This document shows positions 10,134 through 57,642 of a stretch of DNA of 64,000 bases, one piece after another. The DNA comes from Streptomyces albireticuli. GTDB lineage: Bacteria; Actinomycetota; Actinomycetes; Streptomycetales; Streptomycetaceae. A program made the position numbers and the translations under genes. The stretch covers positions 2,696,001-2,760,000 of the forward strand of contig NZ_CP021744.1 of NCBI RefSeq assembly GCF_002192455.1. Direction: 5' to 3'. Positions within the stretch are counted from its first letter, which is position 1. Every line of letters starts with the position of its first letter. Below the pieces are notes generated by a model, which made no database searches, had not been told where the DNA came from, and saw only the letters and a list, made by a program, of their open reading frames with translations.

Positions 10134-10371
10134 ATGAAAGAGCAAAGCGTCCGCCTTCCCCGCACAGGAGGGCGGAGCGGGGCCCGGCGCTCTCTGCCCT
10201 GATCGCGCCCGGCCTCAGGTCGGCCTCTCCGGCCGCGGGGTCCGCACACCCCACGGTCCCGGCGGGCCGATGGCGGCTCCGGGCTGCGGTGCCGAACCGG
10301 GTCGAGGGTCCCGGGTCTGGCGCCGCGGCCCGAAGTGGCCGCGCGCTTCGGGCCGGCTTCGAGTTGCCCTT
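10134..10371. other. Gene-free spacer
   Basis: Between the candidate operator and repeat element C I see no credible coding sequence. The stretch around 10200-10330 is GC-rich with short complementary runs (GGCCGCGGGG, CCGCGGCCC). Confidence 0.4.
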
Positions 10372-26515: not shown

Positions 26516-28137
26516 AGGACGGCGTGAACGGCGTGGCACTCGCCGTCTTCATCTTCTTCTTCCTCGTCGTCACCGTCATGGGCTTCGTCGCCTCGAAGTG
26601 GCGCCGCGCCGAGAACGCGGACAGCCTCGACGAGTGGGGGCTCGGCGGCCGGTCCTTCGGGACGTGGGTGACCTGGTTCCTGCTGGGCGGCGACCTCTAT
26701 ACCGCGTATACGTTCGTGGCCGTCCCGGCCGCCATCTACGCGGGCGGCGCGGCCGGCTTCTTCGCGGTGCCGTACACGATCCTGTGTTACCCGCTCGTCT
26801 TCACCTTCCTGCCCCGGCTCTGGTCGGTCTCGCACAAGCACGGCTACGTGACCTCCTCGGACTTCGTCCGCGGCCGGTTCGGGTCCAAGGGCCTGTCGCT
26901 GGCGCTCGCGCTCACCGGCATCCTCGCGACGATGCCCTACATCGCCCTCCAGCTCGTCGGCATCCAGGCGGTGCTGGACGTCCTCGGCGTGGGCGGCGGC
27001 TCGAACTGGTTCATGAAGGACCTGCCGCTGCTGATCGCGTTCGGTGTGCTCGCGGCGTACACCTACTCCTCCGGGCTGCGGGCCCCGGCGCTGATCGCGT
27101 TCGTCAAGGACGCCCTCATCTACATCGTGATCATCGTCGCGATCATCTACATCCCGATCCGGCTGGGCGGCTTCGACCACATCTTCAGCGCGGCGGGCGA
27201 CGCCTTCGCCGTCAAGAACCCGGAGACGGGCAAGCCGCGCGGCTCCCTGGTGAGCGGGCCGGACGCGCAGTGGGCGTACGCGACGCTCGCGCTGGGCTCC
27301 GCGATGGCGCTCTTCCTCTATCCCCACTCGGTGACGGCGGTTCTCTCCAGCAAAGGCCGCAACGTCATCCGCCGGAACACCACGATCCTGCCGCTGTACT
27401 CGCTGATGCTCGGGCTGCTGGCGATGCTCGGCTTCATGGCGATCGCCGCCGGGATCAAGGTCAAGAACGGGCAGCTCGCCATCCCCCAGCTGTTCGAGGA
27501 CATGTTCCCGGACTGGTTCACGGGCGTGGCCTTCGCCGCCATCGGCATCGGCGCCCTGGTGCCGGCCGCGATCATGTCCATCGCGGCGGCGAACCTTTTC
27601 ACCCGCAACATCTACAAGGACTTCATCAAGCCGGACGCCTCGCCCGAGCACGAGGCGAAGGTCTCCAAGCTCGCCTCGCTCCTGGTGAAGGTCGGCGCGC
27701 TGGTGTTCGTCCTGACCATGGACAAGACGGTCGCGATCAATTTCCAGCTGCTGGGTGGCATCTGGATCCTCCAGACCGTGCCCGCCCTCGTGGGCGGCCT
27801 CTTCACCCGCTGGTTCCACCGCTGGGCGCTGCTCGGCGGCTGGGTGGCCGGCATGGCCTACGGCACCTGGCGGGCGTACGACACGCCGAGCGCCACCCAG
27901 GATCATTTCGGCAATACCAACCTCATCCCCCTTATCGGGGAAAAGGGCTATATCGGGCTGACCGCCTTCGTGCTCAATGTGATCGTGGTCATCGTCCTGA
28001 CCTTCGCCCTCAGGGCCCTCGGCGCGCCCGACGGCGTGGACGAGACCAAGGCCGCGGACTACACCGCGGACGCCGGCGACCCGGGCGTCCGGCAGGAGCT
28101 CCCGCCGGCCACCGCGGGTGCCCCGGGCGGCCACTAG
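26512..28137 (+). CDS. Sodium:solute symporter, monocarboxylate (MctP-like) type
   Basis: 541 residues with about 13 membrane helices. The SSS-family features include the first helix followed by GLGGRSFGTWVTWFLLGGDLYT in its first 20 or so residues, and AIMSIAAANLFTRNIYKDF near residue 350. The preceding DUF3311 gene points to the MctP group, which takes up lactate, pyruvate or similar monocarboxylates with Na+ or H+. The substrate is inferred from context only. A strong GC-rich hairpin follows. Confidence 0.83.
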   Translation: MKDGVNGVALAVFIFFFLVVTVMGFVASKWRRAENADSLDEWGLGGRSFGTWVTWFLLGGDLYTAYTFVAVPAAIYAGGAAGFFAVPYTILCYPLVFTFLPRLWSVSHKHGYVTSSDFVRGRFGSKGLSLALALTGILATMPYIALQLVGIQAVLDVLGVGGGSNWFMKDLPLLIAFGVLAAYTYSSGLRAPALIAFVKDALIYIVIIVAIIYIPIRLGGFDHIFSAAGDAFAVKNPETGKPRGSLVSGPDAQWAYATLALGSAMALFLYPHSVTAVLSSKGRNVIRRNTTILPLYSLMLGLLAMLGFMAIAAGIKVKNGQLAIPQLFEDMFPDWFTGVAFAAIGIGALVPAAIMSIAAANLFTRNIYKDFIKPDASPEHEAKVSKLASLLVKVGALVFVLTMDKTVAINFQLLGGIWILQTVPALVGGLFTRWFHRWALLGGWVAGMAYGTWRAYDTPSATQDHFGNTNLIPLIGEKGYIGLTAFVLNVIVVIVLTFALRALGAPDGVDETKAADYTADAGDPGVRQELPPATAGAPGGH

Positions 28138-28197
28138 GAGCCCCCAGGAAGGCCCGCCCGGACCAGGCCGGTCCGGCGCCCCCGGCCGGGGCCCGCA

Positions 28198-28233
28198 GGG
28201 CCGCCGCACCCCCTCGCAGGGGCGCGGCGGCCC
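28198..28233 (+). terminator. Terminator after the symporter operon
   Basis: GGGCCGCCGC pairs with GCGGCGGCCC, continued inward by CCCC/GGGG with single-base bulges. It is followed by TCTCTC. Confidence 0.75.
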
Positions 28234-28307
28234 TCTCTCGTGCCCGGCGCCAAGGCCCGGAATCCTGGGCCCTGTTAGCACATTCCGACCCGCGCGATTA
28301 CCGCGTG

Positions 28308-28323
28308 ACACAAGATGTGGTGG
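28308..28323. promoter_or_regulatory. NrdR box 1
   Basis: ACACAAGATGTGGTGG fits the NrdR-box pattern seen ahead of ribonucleotide reductase operons (ACAC-A-rich centre-GTG). It pairs with a second box exactly 31 bases downstream. Confidence 0.65.
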
Positions 28324-28338
28324 TGCGTGCGACGGCCA

Positions 28339-28354
28339 GCACTAGATGTATGCT
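28339..28354. promoter_or_regulatory. NrdR box 2
   Basis: GCACTAGATGTATGCT shares the AGATGT core with box 1 at a 31-base offset (three helical turns), the usual spacing of paired NrdR sites. NrdR represses nrd operons when dATP/ATP status is sufficient. Confidence 0.6.
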
Positions 28355-28357
28355 CGT

Positions 28358-28465
28358 CCTCGCTGTCGTCGCAGGGGAATCCGGTGGAAATCCGGAACTG
28401 TCCCGCAACGGTGCATGTATGCCGTAATGACGCATGCAGGAGTCCGAGTACCTGCCGACAGCACG
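28358..28465 (+). ncRNA. Cobalamin (B12) riboswitch upstream of nrdA
   Basis: The region contains GGGAATCCGGTGGAAATCCG (28376-28395), then ACTGTCCCGCAACGGT and the B12 box AGTCCGAGTACCTGCC at 28441-28456. These are the conserved core elements of AdoCbl riboswitches. In Streptomyces a B12 riboswitch is known to shut off the class Ia nrd operon when coenzyme B12 allows the class II enzyme to work. The downstream hairpin at 28464-28501 is the likely expression platform. Confidence 0.93.
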
Positions 28466-28501
28466 CCCACCGCCGAGCCCCCGCTCGTCACCGGGCGTTT
28501 T
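28464..28501 (+). terminator. Candidate riboswitch terminator
   Basis: CGCCC (28464-28468) pairs with GGGCG (28493-28497), followed directly by TTTT. The inner part holds GAGC/GCTC pairs. It is placed immediately after the B12 box, as expected for transcription attenuation. Confidence 0.5.
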
Positions 28502-28630
28502 GCATTCGTCCGGGCCTCGCGGGTTGGGTCGATGGACGCTTACGAGCATGCCCTGGTGCTGTCAGGCATGCCCGTACGCGCCCGTCGCGCGCCACCCGCC
28601 CGGCCCCCTGCCGAGCGAGGGAGAGCCTCA

Positions 28631-31009
28631 GTGACCATCGCGCCCGCCGATCCGGTCTCAGCGTCCGCGGAAGCGACCGGCGGCCCCGGGACCGCGCTGC
28701 TGCGCACCCTGACCGACCTCACCGCCGATCTGCCCGCCACCGACCCCGGAAAGGTCGCCGCCGCCGCGCTGCGCGGCCGCCACCCGGGTTCGGACGAGGC
28801 CGAGCTGCGGTCCCTGGCCACCGAGGCCGCGGCCGGCCTGATCTCCGAGGAGCCCCAGTACTCCCGGCTCGCCGCCCGGCTGCTCACCCGCGCGATCGCC
28901 GACGAGGCGGCCGGGCAGGGCGCGACCTCCTTCTCCGCCTCCGTCGAGGTGGGTCACCGCGAGGGCCTGATCGCCGACGAGACGGCCGCCTTCGTGCGCG
29001 CCCACGCCGCGCGCCTGGACGCCCTCGTCGAGCGGGCGATGGCCGACGGCGCGGACGACCGCTTCGGCTACTTCGGCCTGCGCACCCTGCACAGCCGCTA
29101 CCTGCTGCGCCACCCGATCACCCGGCAGGTCGTCGAGACCCCGCAGCACTTCCTGCTGCGCGTGGCCTGCGGCCTGGCCGAGGACCACTCGGAGCGCGCC
29201 CTGGACGACGTGGCCGAGCTGTACGGGCTGACCAGCACCCTCTCGTACCTCCCCTCCTCCCCCACGCTCTTCAACTCCGGCACCCGCCACCCGCAGATGT
29301 CGTCCTGCTACCTGCTGGACTCCCCGCTGGACGAGCTGGACTCGATCTACGACCGCTACCACCAGGTGGCCCGGCTGTCGAAGCACGCCGGCGGCATCGG
29401 CCTGTCGTACTCGCGCATCCGCTCCCGCGGCTCGCTGATCCGCGGCACCAACGGCCACTCCAACGGCATCGTGCCGTTCCTGCGCACGCTCGACGCCTCC
29501 GTCGCCGCGGTCAACCAGGGCGGCCGGCGCAAGGGCGCGGCCTGCGTCTACCTGGAGACCTGGCACGCGGACATCGAGGAGTTCCTGGAGCTCCGCGACA
29601 ACACCGGTGAGGAGGCCCGCCGCACGCACAACCTCAACACCGCGCACTGGATCCCGGACGAGTTCATGCGCCGCGTCGAGGCCGACGCCGACTGGTCGCT
29701 GTTCTCCCCGGCCGACACGCCCGAGCTGGTCGACCTGTGGGGCGACGAGTTCGACGCCGCTTACCGCAAGGCCGAGGCCGACGGCAAGGCCGTCAAGACC
29801 ATCCCGGCCCGCGTGCTGTACTCCCGGATGATGCGCACCCTCGCGCAGACCGGCAACGGCTGGATGACCTTCAAGGACGCGTCCAACCGCACCGCGAACC
29901 AGACGGCCGAGCCCGGCAAGGTCGTACACTCCTCGAACCTCTGCACCGAGATCCTGGAGGTCACCGACGACGGCGAGACCGCCGTCTGCAACCTCGGCTC
30001 GGTCAACCTCGCCGCCCACCTGGGCACCGACGGCGACATGGACTGGGAGAAGCTCGACCGTACGGTCCGTACGGCCGTGACGTTCCTCGACCGCGTCGTG
30101 GACATCAACTTCTACCCGACCGAGCAGGCCGGCAACTCCAACAGCCGCTGGCGCCCGGTGGGCCTGGGCCTCATGGGTCTCCAGGACGTCTTCTTCCGGC
30201 TGCGCCTGCCCTTCGACTCCGCCGAGGCGAAGGAGCTGTCCACCCGGATCTCCGAGCGCATCATGCTCGCGGCGTACGAGGCCTCCGCCGACCTCGCCGA
30301 GCGGCACGGCCCGCACCCGGCCTGGTCCGCGACCCGCACCGCGCGCGGCGTGCTGCACCCGGACCACTACCCGAACGCCGAGCAGCGCTGGGCCGACCGC
30401 TGGGGCGCCCTGCGCGCCCGCATCGCCCAGGTCGGCATGCGCAACTCGCTGCTGCTGGCCATCGCGCCGACGGCCACCATCGCCTCCATCGCGGGCGTGT
30501 ACGAGTGCATCGAGCCGCAGGTCTCCAACCTCTTCAAGCGCGAGACCCTCAGCGGTGAGTTCCTCCAGGTCAACACCTACCTGGTGGAGGACCTGAAGAA
30601 GCTCGGCGTCTGGGACCGCACCACGCGGGACGCGATGACCGACGCCAACGGCTCGATCCAGGACATGAACTGGATCCCGCAGGAGGTGCGCGACCTCTAC
30701 CGCACCGCCTGGGAGATCCCGCAGCGCGCCCTGATCGACATGGCCGCGGCCCGTACGCCGTACCTGGACCAGAGCCAGTCGCTGAACCTCTTCATGGCCT
30801 CGCCGACCATCGGCAAGCTCAGCTCGATGTACGCGTACGCCTGGAAGCAGGGCATCAAGACGACGTACTACCTGCGCTCGCGCCCGGCGACCCGGATCGC
30901 CCGCTCGGCCTCGGCCGCCGCCACCATCCCCGTCCAGCAGGTCACCCCGGACGCCGACGCCGTCGCCTGCTCCCTTGAGAACCCCGAGTCCTGCGAGGCC
31001 TGCCAGTAA
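28631..31009 (+). CDS. nrdA: Class Ia ribonucleoside-diphosphate reductase, alpha subunit
   Basis: 792 residues. Catalytic-site cysteines are visible in MSSCYLLDS and in AVCNLGSVNL. The radical-transfer and substrate region (NLCTEILEV, GNSNSRW) is followed by the conserved end AYAWKQGIKTTYYLRSR. The C-terminal CEAC pair reduces the active site. The enzyme makes deoxyribonucleotides from NDPs together with NrdB. GTG at 28631 has a GAGGGAGAG site; the open frame upstream belongs to the leader. Control by NrdR and by the B12 riboswitch is indicated by the leader. Confidence 0.95.
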   Translation: MTIAPADPVSASAEATGGPGTALLRTLTDLTADLPATDPGKVAAAALRGRHPGSDEAELRSLATEAAAGLISEEPQYSRLAARLLTRAIADEAAGQGATSFSASVEVGHREGLIADETAAFVRAHAARLDALVERAMADGADDRFGYFGLRTLHSRYLLRHPITRQVVETPQHFLLRVACGLAEDHSERALDDVAELYGLTSTLSYLPSSPTLFNSGTRHPQMSSCYLLDSPLDELDSIYDRYHQVARLSKHAGGIGLSYSRIRSRGSLIRGTNGHSNGIVPFLRTLDASVAAVNQGGRRKGAACVYLETWHADIEEFLELRDNTGEEARRTHNLNTAHWIPDEFMRRVEADADWSLFSPADTPELVDLWGDEFDAAYRKAEADGKAVKTIPARVLYSRMMRTLAQTGNGWMTFKDASNRTANQTAEPGKVVHSSNLCTEILEVTDDGETAVCNLGSVNLAAHLGTDGDMDWEKLDRTVRTAVTFLDRVVDINFYPTEQAGNSNSRWRPVGLGLMGLQDVFFRLRLPFDSAEAKELSTRISERIMLAAYEASADLAERHGPHPAWSATRTARGVLHPDHYPNAEQRWADRWGALRARIAQVGMRNSLLLAIAPTATIASIAGVYECIEPQVSNLFKRETLSGEFLQVNTYLVEDLKKLGVWDRTTRDAMTDANGSIQDMNWIPQEVRDLYRTAWEIPQRALIDMAAARTPYLDQSQSLNLFMASPTIGKLSSMYAYAWKQGIKTTYYLRSRPATRIARSASAAATIPVQQVTPDADAVACSLENPESCEACQ

Positions 31010-32022
31010 TGTCGTCCGAACAGAAGAACCTGCTCGACCCGGGCTTCGAGCTGACGCTGCGCCCGATGCGGTACCCGGACTTCTACGACCGCTACCGCGA
31101 CGCGATCAAGAACACCTGGACCGTCGAGGAGGTCGACCTCCACTCGGACGTCGCCGACCTCGCCAAGCTGTCCCCGGGTGAGCAGCACATGATCGGCCGT
31201 CTCGTCGCGTTCTTCGCGACCGGCGACTCGATCGTGGCGAACAACCTCGTGCTGACGCTGTACAAGCACATCAACTCCCCCGAGGCGCGGCTGTACCTGT
31301 CGCGGCAGCTGTTCGAGGAGGCCGTGCACGTCCAGTTCTATCTGACGCTGCTCGACACCTACCTCCCCGACCCGGAGGACCGCGCCGCCGCCTTCGACGC
31401 GGTCGAGAACATCCCCTCGATCCGCGAGAAGGCCCAGTTCTGCTTCAAGTGGATCAACGAGGTCGAGAAGCTGGAGCGGCTGGAGACGAAGGCCGACCGC
31501 CGTCGCTTCCTGCTCAACCTGATCTGCTTCGCGGCCTGCATCGAGGGCCTGTTCTTCTACGGCGCCTTCGCCTACGTGTACTGGTTCCGCAGCCGCGGCC
31601 TGCTGCACGGCCTGGCGACCGGCACCAACTGGGTCTTCCGCGACGAGTCCATGCACATGGACTTCGCGTTCTCCGTCGTGGACACCGTCCGCGAGGAGGA
31701 GCCGGACCTGTTCGACGACGAGCTCCAGCAGCAGGTCACCGACATGCTCAAGGAGGCCGTCGAGTGCGAGCTCCAGTTCGCCCGCGACCTGTGCGGTGAG
31801 GGCCTGCCGGGCATGAACACCGACTCCATGCGCGAGTACCTCCAGTGCGTCGCCGACCAGCGTCTCCAGCGCCTGGGCATCGCCCCGGTGTTCGGCTCGG
31901 AGAACCCTTTCTCCTTCATGGAGCTCCAGAACGTCCAGGAGCTGACCAACTTCTTCGAGCGCCGCGCGTCCGCGTACCAGGTGGCGGTCGAGGGTTCGGT
32001 GGGCTTCGACGAGGAGTTCTAG
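31009..32022 (+). CDS. nrdB: Class Ia ribonucleotide reductase, beta (radical) subunit
   Basis: 337 residues of the ferritin-like fold. Di-iron ligands appear in the EEAVHVQFY and DESMHMDFAF helices, with earlier carboxylates in the SPGEQHMIGRLVAFFATGDS segment. The C-terminus (VEGSVGFDEEF) is the tail that docks to NrdA. It generates the tyrosyl radical needed by NrdA. Its ATG overlaps the nrdA stop by one base (TAATG), so translation is coupled. No third gene equivalent to nrdS of S. coelicolor follows; the next gene is on the opposite strand. Confidence 0.95.
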   Translation: MSSEQKNLLDPGFELTLRPMRYPDFYDRYRDAIKNTWTVEEVDLHSDVADLAKLSPGEQHMIGRLVAFFATGDSIVANNLVLTLYKHINSPEARLYLSRQLFEEAVHVQFYLTLLDTYLPDPEDRAAAFDAVENIPSIREKAQFCFKWINEVEKLERLETKADRRRFLLNLICFAACIEGLFFYGAFAYVYWFRSRGLLHGLATGTNWVFRDESMHMDFAFSVVDTVREEEPDLFDDELQQQVTDMLKEAVECELQFARDLCGEGLPGMNTDSMREYLQCVADQRLQRLGIAPVFGSENPFSFMELQNVQELTNFFERRASAYQVAVEGSVGFDEEF

Positions 32023-55289: not shown

Positions 55290-55363
55290 TAGCGGGGACA
55301 GGATTTGAACCTGCGACCTCTGGGTTATGAGCCCAGCGAGCTACCGAGCTGCTCCACCCCGCG
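55290..55363 (-). tRNA. Initiator tRNA-fMet (CAT), copy 1
   Basis: Reading the minus strand, the cloverleaf has acceptor CGCGGGG...CCCCGC with an unpaired C1:T72, anticodon loop CTCATAA with three consecutive G:C pairs in the anticodon stem (GGG/CCC), and T-loop TTCAAAT. The unpaired 1:72 position and the GGG/CCC stem are the marks of initiator rather than elongator methionine tRNA. No CCA is encoded. Identical to the copy at 57569. Confidence 0.95.
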
Positions 55364-57568: not shown

Positions 57569-57642
57569 TAGCGGGGACAGGATTTGAACCTGCGACCTCT
57601 GGGTTATGAGCCCAGCGAGCTACCGAGCTGCTCCACCCCGCG
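57569..57642 (-). tRNA. Initiator tRNA-fMet (CAT), copy 2
   Basis: Sequence identical over all 74 bases to the copy at 55290-55363, with the same initiator features (unpaired 1:72 position, GGG/CCC anticodon stem, CAT anticodon). No CCA is encoded. It lies 53 bases before the end of the UPF0182 gene. Confidence 0.95.

Follow-up and report, generated by a model that had tools for sequence, protein, structure and literature searches.

The nrdAB locus and its leader

The stretch of DNA analysed here (hereafter the window) is 64,000 nucleotides long and belongs to a Streptomyces albireticuli genome consisting of one contig of 8,144,417 bases (8.14 Mb). It carries nrdA and nrdB, the genes for the large and small subunits of a class Ia ribonucleotide reductase, preceded by a compact leader. 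Two NrdR boxes are followed by an AdoCbl-II riboswitch, a hairpin with a TTTT run and a further conserved element, called X here, before nrdAB is reached (Table 1). Among the rows compared in a quick tree, the closest NrdA is that of S. eurocidicus (99% over 153 NrdA positions). A preliminary description of the locus had placed the boxes, the riboswitch and the hairpin at coordinates that proved correct on re-analysis. The open reading frames downstream also agree with its view that the operon is nrdAB only, nrdS not being found beside nrdB in the window.

Table 1. Features of the nrdAB leader and genes (positions in the window)
Feature	Position	Strand	Details and evidence
NrdR box 1, ACACAAGATGTGGTGG	28308-28323	+	Consensus score; conserved in relatives
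NrdR box 2, GCACTAGATGTATGCT	28339-28354	+	Consensus score; ends in the six-base -10 element
-10 element TATGCT (TAnnnT)	28349-28354	+	80/80 leaders have ATGTATGCT where box 2 ends
AdoCbl-II cobalamin riboswitch aptamer with P1	28362-28462	+	Rfam match 28363-28461; P1 28362-28368 with 28456-28462 by fold
Hairpin behind the aptamer ("P13")	28463-28498	+	Minimum-energy fold; covariation
TTTT tail	28498-28501	+	3 of 142 leaders: window, L023, L033
Element X	28507-28538	+	Inner stem 28513-28517 with 28526-28530; outer stem 28507-28512 with 28533-28538
CGAGCGAGGGAGAG, conserved, contains the nrdA ribosome-binding site	28612-28625	+	Leader alignment, family comparison
nrdA, class Ia ribonucleotide reductase large subunit	28631-31009	+	792 aa; GTG start; Pfam
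nrdB, small subunit	31009-32022	+	337 aa; first base shared with the end of the nrdA stop codon; Pfam

Elsewhere in the window, positions 10148-10323 correspond to the Streptomyces small RNA scr5239 (RF02605, 69.8 bits). Two tRNA genes, at 55290-55363 and 57569-57642 (minus), lie about 2.2 kb apart; their letters are identical in the Rfam alignment and the anticodon, read by eye, is CAU.

Leader samples

GTDB genomes scanned with nrdB provided 80 named loci, nearly all titled Streptomyces, which together with the window form a first set of 81. Leaders are readable in 80 of these; L070, with 63 bp of upstream sequence only, is left out of all leader counts. Three alignments were made: A1, with 54 distinct of the 80 leaders; A2, with 75 of the 80 (73 distinct; L029, L039, L049, L060 and L069 left out); and A3, with 44 rows, from which no counts were taken. 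In a larger set of 151 leaders, the T run and the length available for the hairpin were assessed in 142 usable leaders (L070, L170 and L209-L215 left out). Stem pairing in X was counted in 119 of 122 rows, L035, L036 and L170 being missed by the pattern, and the count of the X core over the 151 leaders does not include L216 and L217. The loci were placed by a quick tree search. In this tree the nrdA of L024, a record titled Streptosporangium nondiastaticum, groups with Streptomyces, and the record is perhaps misnamed.

NrdR operator and promoter

The box pair of the window scores 26 of 32 against an NrdR consensus. Within the 64 kb, the runner-up pair at a distance of 30-32 bp has a score of 20 and again includes box 1, and the maximum in 20 Markov-resampled windows is 22; the scoring therefore upholds the earlier claim of NrdR-like boxes 31 bases apart directly before the riboswitch. 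The pair is well conserved in score among the 81 loci, with at least 23 in 78 of them and 22 in two, the short L070 being the other, and the spacing is 31 bp in 44 loci and 32 bp in 34. An NrdR operator is reported to require two palindromic boxes whose centres lie about three helix turns apart, with a spacer of 15-16 bp (PMC12051234, in the portion used here). The window, with boxes 31 bp apart and a 15 bp spacer, has this geometry. In operators of the 32-bp type (L043, L050, L053, L085 and others) the boxes and their flanks make up a long inverted repeat, e.g. ACATGTGGGGGG...CCCCCCACATGT, from which the operators of the 31-bp type differ.

Four G/C positions of NrdR boxes are termed highly conserved in a passage of PMC9110341. 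According to our mapping from that passage, the boxes of the window keep three of the four. The fourth, position 28351, is T, as it is in all 80 readable leaders, because it belongs to the -10 element. The presence of all four is a strong tendency rather than an established requirement at nrdAB, and the same passage gives NrdR binding at S. coelicolor nrdAB as somewhat weaker than at nrdRJ.

The -10 element, invariant in the 80 leaders, is of the TAnnnT type described for S. lividans in part of PMC8079986, and helix P1 of the riboswitch starts 7 nt past it in 77 of 80 leaders. Since the -10 element overlaps the boxes and P1 stands so close behind, the transcript should start at about 28360-28362, where the foot of the aptamer lies, rather than at a point beyond the riboswitch. 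A start at this place is required by the two-layer control of the preliminary description, for which a start downstream of the riboswitch would have been fatal.

The cobalamin riboswitch

The aptamer is a member of the Rfam AdoCbl-II family RF01689, with 43.3 bits against a gathering score of 36.5 and an E-value of 4.6e-7. This result, above the curated Rfam score, bears out the view that a full cobalamin riboswitch stands just behind the boxes. The aptamer motif is present in all 80 leaders of the first set, as is the whole arrangement of box pair plus riboswitch. A cobalamin riboswitch was also reported by Rfam in each of the 17 fetched leaders with an X match that were submitted to it. The 154-nt segment 28352-28505 folds no more stably than its shuffled versions (z -0.84); the 309-nt leader is more stable than shuffles (z -3.30).

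The riboswitch reaches into loci that the X model, described below, did not detect (L188-L217): 18 of the 20 submitted to Rfam carry it, including L209-L215 and L217. L189 and L190 have NrdR boxes, X and the CCCGCAACGG aptamer motif but no Rfam riboswitch match that reaches the gathering score; their aptamers have perhaps diverged. L209-L215 constitute an outgroup in which a short leader behind the riboswitch runs straight into the ribosome-binding site, which suggests that control there may be translational.

The P13 hairpin and the T run

The hairpin directly behind the aptamer, called P13 here, covaries strongly. In the 75 leaders of A2, 7 of 10 base pairs covary, and changes on both sides of a pair occupy 74 cells against 27.2 +/- 5.3 in shuffles, none of 500 being as high. 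Such compensatory change indicates that P13 is a real RNA helix.

Its role as a terminator is another matter. A terminator scan of 28130-28700 returned one site, against a mean of 0.1 in shuffles, and the stem of this site (28482-28497) is a smaller alternative to P13 before the same T run. The TTTT ahead of X is found in three of 80 leaders of the first set and in three of 142 in the larger one, the window, L023 and L033 in both cases. Moreover, P13 is gone from 12 leaders, in which the stretch from aptamer to X is too short to hold it (L162, which seemed short through a misplaced motif, is not counted among them). These leaders fall in three groups of the tree: L049, L060 and L069 (support 100); L126, L128, L129, L160, L175 and L176 (support 90); and, elsewhere, L204, L205 and L207, within a group of 13 with support 84. 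X is kept in all 12. A terminator function of P13 is therefore doubtful, because the T run is so rare and the hairpin itself missing from these lineages. The terminator-like platform proposed in the preliminary description thus stands for the window, which has the hairpin, the TTTT and the scan site, and fails as a general description: a hairpin plus T run is not what the relatives share.

Distribution of element X

Element X has the consensus ACGTCCGGGCCTCGCGGnnTGGGCCGGTGGACGC and immediately follows P13 or, in leaders that lack P13, helix P1. Its core pattern occurs in 80/80 leaders of the first set and in 139/151 leaders overall; in L035, L036, L170 and L177 (which contains an N) it was missed by the pattern only and is visible by eye. 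A model of X matches 115 of 121 Streptomyces genomes, the genome of the window counted, a proportion that is no independent test because the model was built from the same genus. All 20 X-model loci that were checked stand before nrdA. Three of the six Streptomyces genomes without a match (G043, G045 and G050, the latter 82% complete) show no class Ia nrdA. The other three (G047, G084 and G105), like G398 of the class sample, have a divergent X that is seen without filters.

In the family sample the model matches 48 of 81 genomes. Forty further matches were fetched, comprising the best of all 33 outside the genus and seven weak ones within it, and 38 of the 40 precede nrdA, L169 and L171 being the exceptions. 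Among the 33 family genomes without a match, three lack a close class Ia gene and the remaining 30 gave L188-L217. The X core is present in all 21 of L188-L208. It is absent from the outgroup L209-L215 and from L217, whose NrdA is 48% identical, all of which have the riboswitch; L216, a broken locus, is counted on neither side. In G043, G045 and G050 of the genus and G411, G422 and G465 of the family, the only match to class Ia nrdA is at 28-29% identity, and X was not detected.

Beyond the family, a search of 296 genomes of the class gave weak matches in 10 genomes of other genera. None of the 10 is beside nrdA, so they were taken as chance. No Rfam family outside the clan of RF01689 matches 28200-28700 at E-values up to 5. 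Four short pieces of X have no occurrence in the literature searched, a scope outside which the key 2006 papers on S. coelicolor fall, and an earlier description of the element is possible.

Structure of element X

The sequence of element X, an inverted repeat, hardly varies, and its conservation across these leaders is clear. Evidence for structure comes from the inner stem. In 119 rows, 268 of 270 cells are paired and three double changes, from C-G to U-A, are observed, each value being equalled in one of 500 shuffles; the patterns that define X fix arm positions to purine or pyrimidine, so that these counts lean towards pairing. Four rows with U-A and two with U-G are present in the wider set, and in the tree the compensatory changes map to about three places: L037, L197, and the clade holding L126, L160, L128 and L129. 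No double change was seen in the outer stem in the 119 rows, and a test of the hairpin restricted to Streptomyces gave no covariation above shuffles. An alternative register of X was also tried; its pairing is no better.

Fold predictions for whole leaders do not favour X. In these folds the inner stem exceeds a probability of 0.5 in 1/78, and in a second run in 1/69. The corresponding figures are 0/69 when P1 is forced, 12/69 in transcripts cut behind X and 29/69 when the transcript is cut and P1 is forced as well. Taken together, the comparisons suggest that X is probably structured in part, as a candidate functional element.

A model with two brakes, and its alternatives

The nrdAB enzyme would be the oxygen-dependent partner of a B12-dependent reductase. 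From the features of the leader we infer two brakes in series. When dNTPs are plentiful, an NrdR tetramer carrying ATP and dATP would occupy both boxes and so cover the -10 element; binding of a tetramer loaded in this way has been demonstrated for S. coelicolor NrdR (PMC9110341, in the part cited). When B12 is present, a transcript beginning at the foot of the aptamer would bind adenosylcobalamin, and the cell would use the class II enzyme NrdJ while nrdAB is held low. A B12-dependent lowering of nrdAB is reported for S. coelicolor in the cited part of PMC4991794. The bound aptamer, often together with P13, may then favour the X hairpin, which would halt or destabilise the transcript as a terminator without U residues, a Rho-dependent stop or a protein site. 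For the window and its small clade, the T run may provide a conventional terminator in addition. This model, with an NrdR brake, a B12 riboswitch brake and X as the constant part of the platform, seems to us a reasonably probable account of the locus. Its last component is proposed with moderate confidence: X, not a U tail, would be what stays constant in the expression platform, because X is kept in every readable leader except the outgroup and L217 and P13 has been lost repeatedly. The stronger proposal, that X is an undescribed regulatory RNA hairpin across Streptomycetaceae, the true platform of the nrdAB riboswitch and a U-less stop or destabiliser of transcripts that has outlived the losses of P13, is put forward as a tentative possibility.

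Several other readings deserve attention. In a classic intrinsic terminator, B12 binding would allow the hairpin before TTTT (28463-28501) to form and transcription would end there, with X as a bystander. The single terminator-like site in the scan, the covariation of P13 and the premature transcript ends reported before nrdAB of Propionibacterium acnes (a passage of PMC3848588) all speak for such a mechanism. However, it would leave most of the family without its T run and 12 leaders without its hairpin, and X persists in the latter; we regard it as somewhat doubtful. It is unlikely that X acts instead at the level of DNA, as an operator for the redox regulator SenR, for example. An inverted repeat of nearly constant sequence is what an operator would look like, and a portion of PMC4991794 reports binding of SenR upstream of nrdA and places a putative site close to the riboswitch. 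Many one-sided changes in X, however, retain pairing only through G-U, which points to RNA; so do the matched changes of the inner stem, which taken alone would also be possible in a DNA palindrome.

The two remaining alternatives involve other partners for the arms of X. It seems quite improbable that the 3' arm of P13 pairs with the 5' arm of X as an antiterminator exclusive with both hairpins. This pairing is kept in 92.1% of cells in Streptomyces, no strand swap is seen in the three lowest P13 pairs and the cut leader of the window folds in this way. Yet its covariation does not rise above shuffles, other genera keep a short match or none (by eye, e.g. in L155 and L165) and the pairing is impossible in the 12 leaders without P13, so that a pairing maintained within Streptomyces finds no support across the genera of the family. 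A block of translation, in which CCUCG of X would pair with CGAGG of the ribosome-binding site, is very unlikely. In its favour, CCUCGC is complementary to GCGAGG in the window, and conservation ahead of the start codon goes beyond what a ribosome-binding site needs. Across the family, however, inspection by eye shows that changes on the two sides fail to match: X reads CCCCG in several leaders while the site keeps its A, and sites with CCAGG or CACAGG occur alongside an unchanged CCUCG. A role of X as an anti-Shine-Dalgarno sequence is thus unsupported.

The reading of X as the constant part of the platform has a parallel in transcript ends that are structured and lack a U tract, which term-seq has revealed in Streptomyces (PMC8269248, PMC8914203). 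By analogy, ends of this kind would suit X. If the proposal is true, X would represent a U-less stop that is under ligand control and serves a single gene pair. The wider interest lies in the riboswitches of GC-rich actinobacteria: to our knowledge, how they stop expression without a U tract is poorly settled. X offers a small and concrete target for this question in front of a single gene. Natural variants are at hand, with P13 lost in three groups, X changed in some leaders and X absent from the outgroup, and X is therefore the part of the locus worth experimental work.

The nrdR, nrdJ and nrdS genes

The preliminary description had left the wider genome to be searched for nrdS and class II nrdJ. 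The class II large subunit gene nrdJ is present at 2.13 Mb as a neighbour of nrdR, which was recognised by an ATP-cone match (E 1.9e-16) in a 175-aa open frame adjoining nrdJ. Between the two genes lies an nrdJ RNA (RF03034, 59.1 bits; L015 5755-5831, minus), and both reductases of this genome thus have a conserved RNA in their leaders. Upstream of nrdR, the highest score of a box-like pair is 22, which does not exceed the best of the resampled windows, and this pair is therefore weak taken alone. A third ribonucleotide reductase large subunit of about 646 aa is encoded at L016 6861-8801 (minus), at about 1.371-1.373 Mb of the genome. The stretch has a lower GC3 and its neighbours look phage-like by eye; this is probably a prophage enzyme.

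No close nrdS was found genome-wide, the three best matches to an NrdS-like protein being 50-51% identical. By comparison, identities of 70-96% are found among the 27 NrdS-like proteins in the nrdB loci of relatives, which were assigned by position and type (DJ-1/PfpI plus AraC-type HTH) and not by means of the S. coelicolor sequence. An NrdS-like gene lies within three open reading frames downstream of nrdB in at least 27 of the 81 loci, the window being among the 81, and directly adjoins nrdB in 11. This figure is a lower bound because some loci end early. Absence of nrdS is common among the relatives.

Comparison with known systems

The locus illustrates the choice of the cell between B12-dependent and oxygen-dependent synthesis of DNA precursors. 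The NrdR boxes of S. coelicolor nrdABS are said to have been described by Grinberg et al. in 2006. That operon is under the control of a cobalamin riboswitch (PMC4991794, citing Borovok 2006), and NrdR binds the boxes of the nrdAB promoter (PMC9110341). In the portions of these two reports used here, S. coelicolor and the window share a class Ia nrdAB, paired NrdR boxes, a cobalamin riboswitch in the leader and an nrdR-nrdJ pair elsewhere in the genome. The S. coelicolor operon differs in having nrdS, whose product is described as "AraC-like" in the part of PMC4991794 cited; the operon of the window is without it. The nrdAB operon of P. acnes also resembles the window, in that an NrdR box covers the promoter, a cobalamin riboswitch is present and transcripts end early, before the first gene; as set out in the cited passage of PMC3848588, its promoter has one NrdR box, in contrast to the two of the window. 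The pairing of NrdR with a B12 riboswitch is thus already known from these systems (PMC4991794, PMC9110341 and PMC3848588, each in part). The two-layer control of nrdAB suggested earlier for this locus is well supported by its boxes, -10 element and aptamer, and the qualifications concern its novelty as a combination and the U-tailed terminator, which is not the general platform.

The nrdJ RNA RF03034, which according to part of PMC8079986 is found in S. lividans as well, resembles the nrdAB leader in being a conserved RNA before the gene of the partner enzyme, nrdJ; it is another RNA at another gene. In the leader described here, the aptamer belongs to RF01689. The match to this family ends at 28461, and P13 and X lie outside it.
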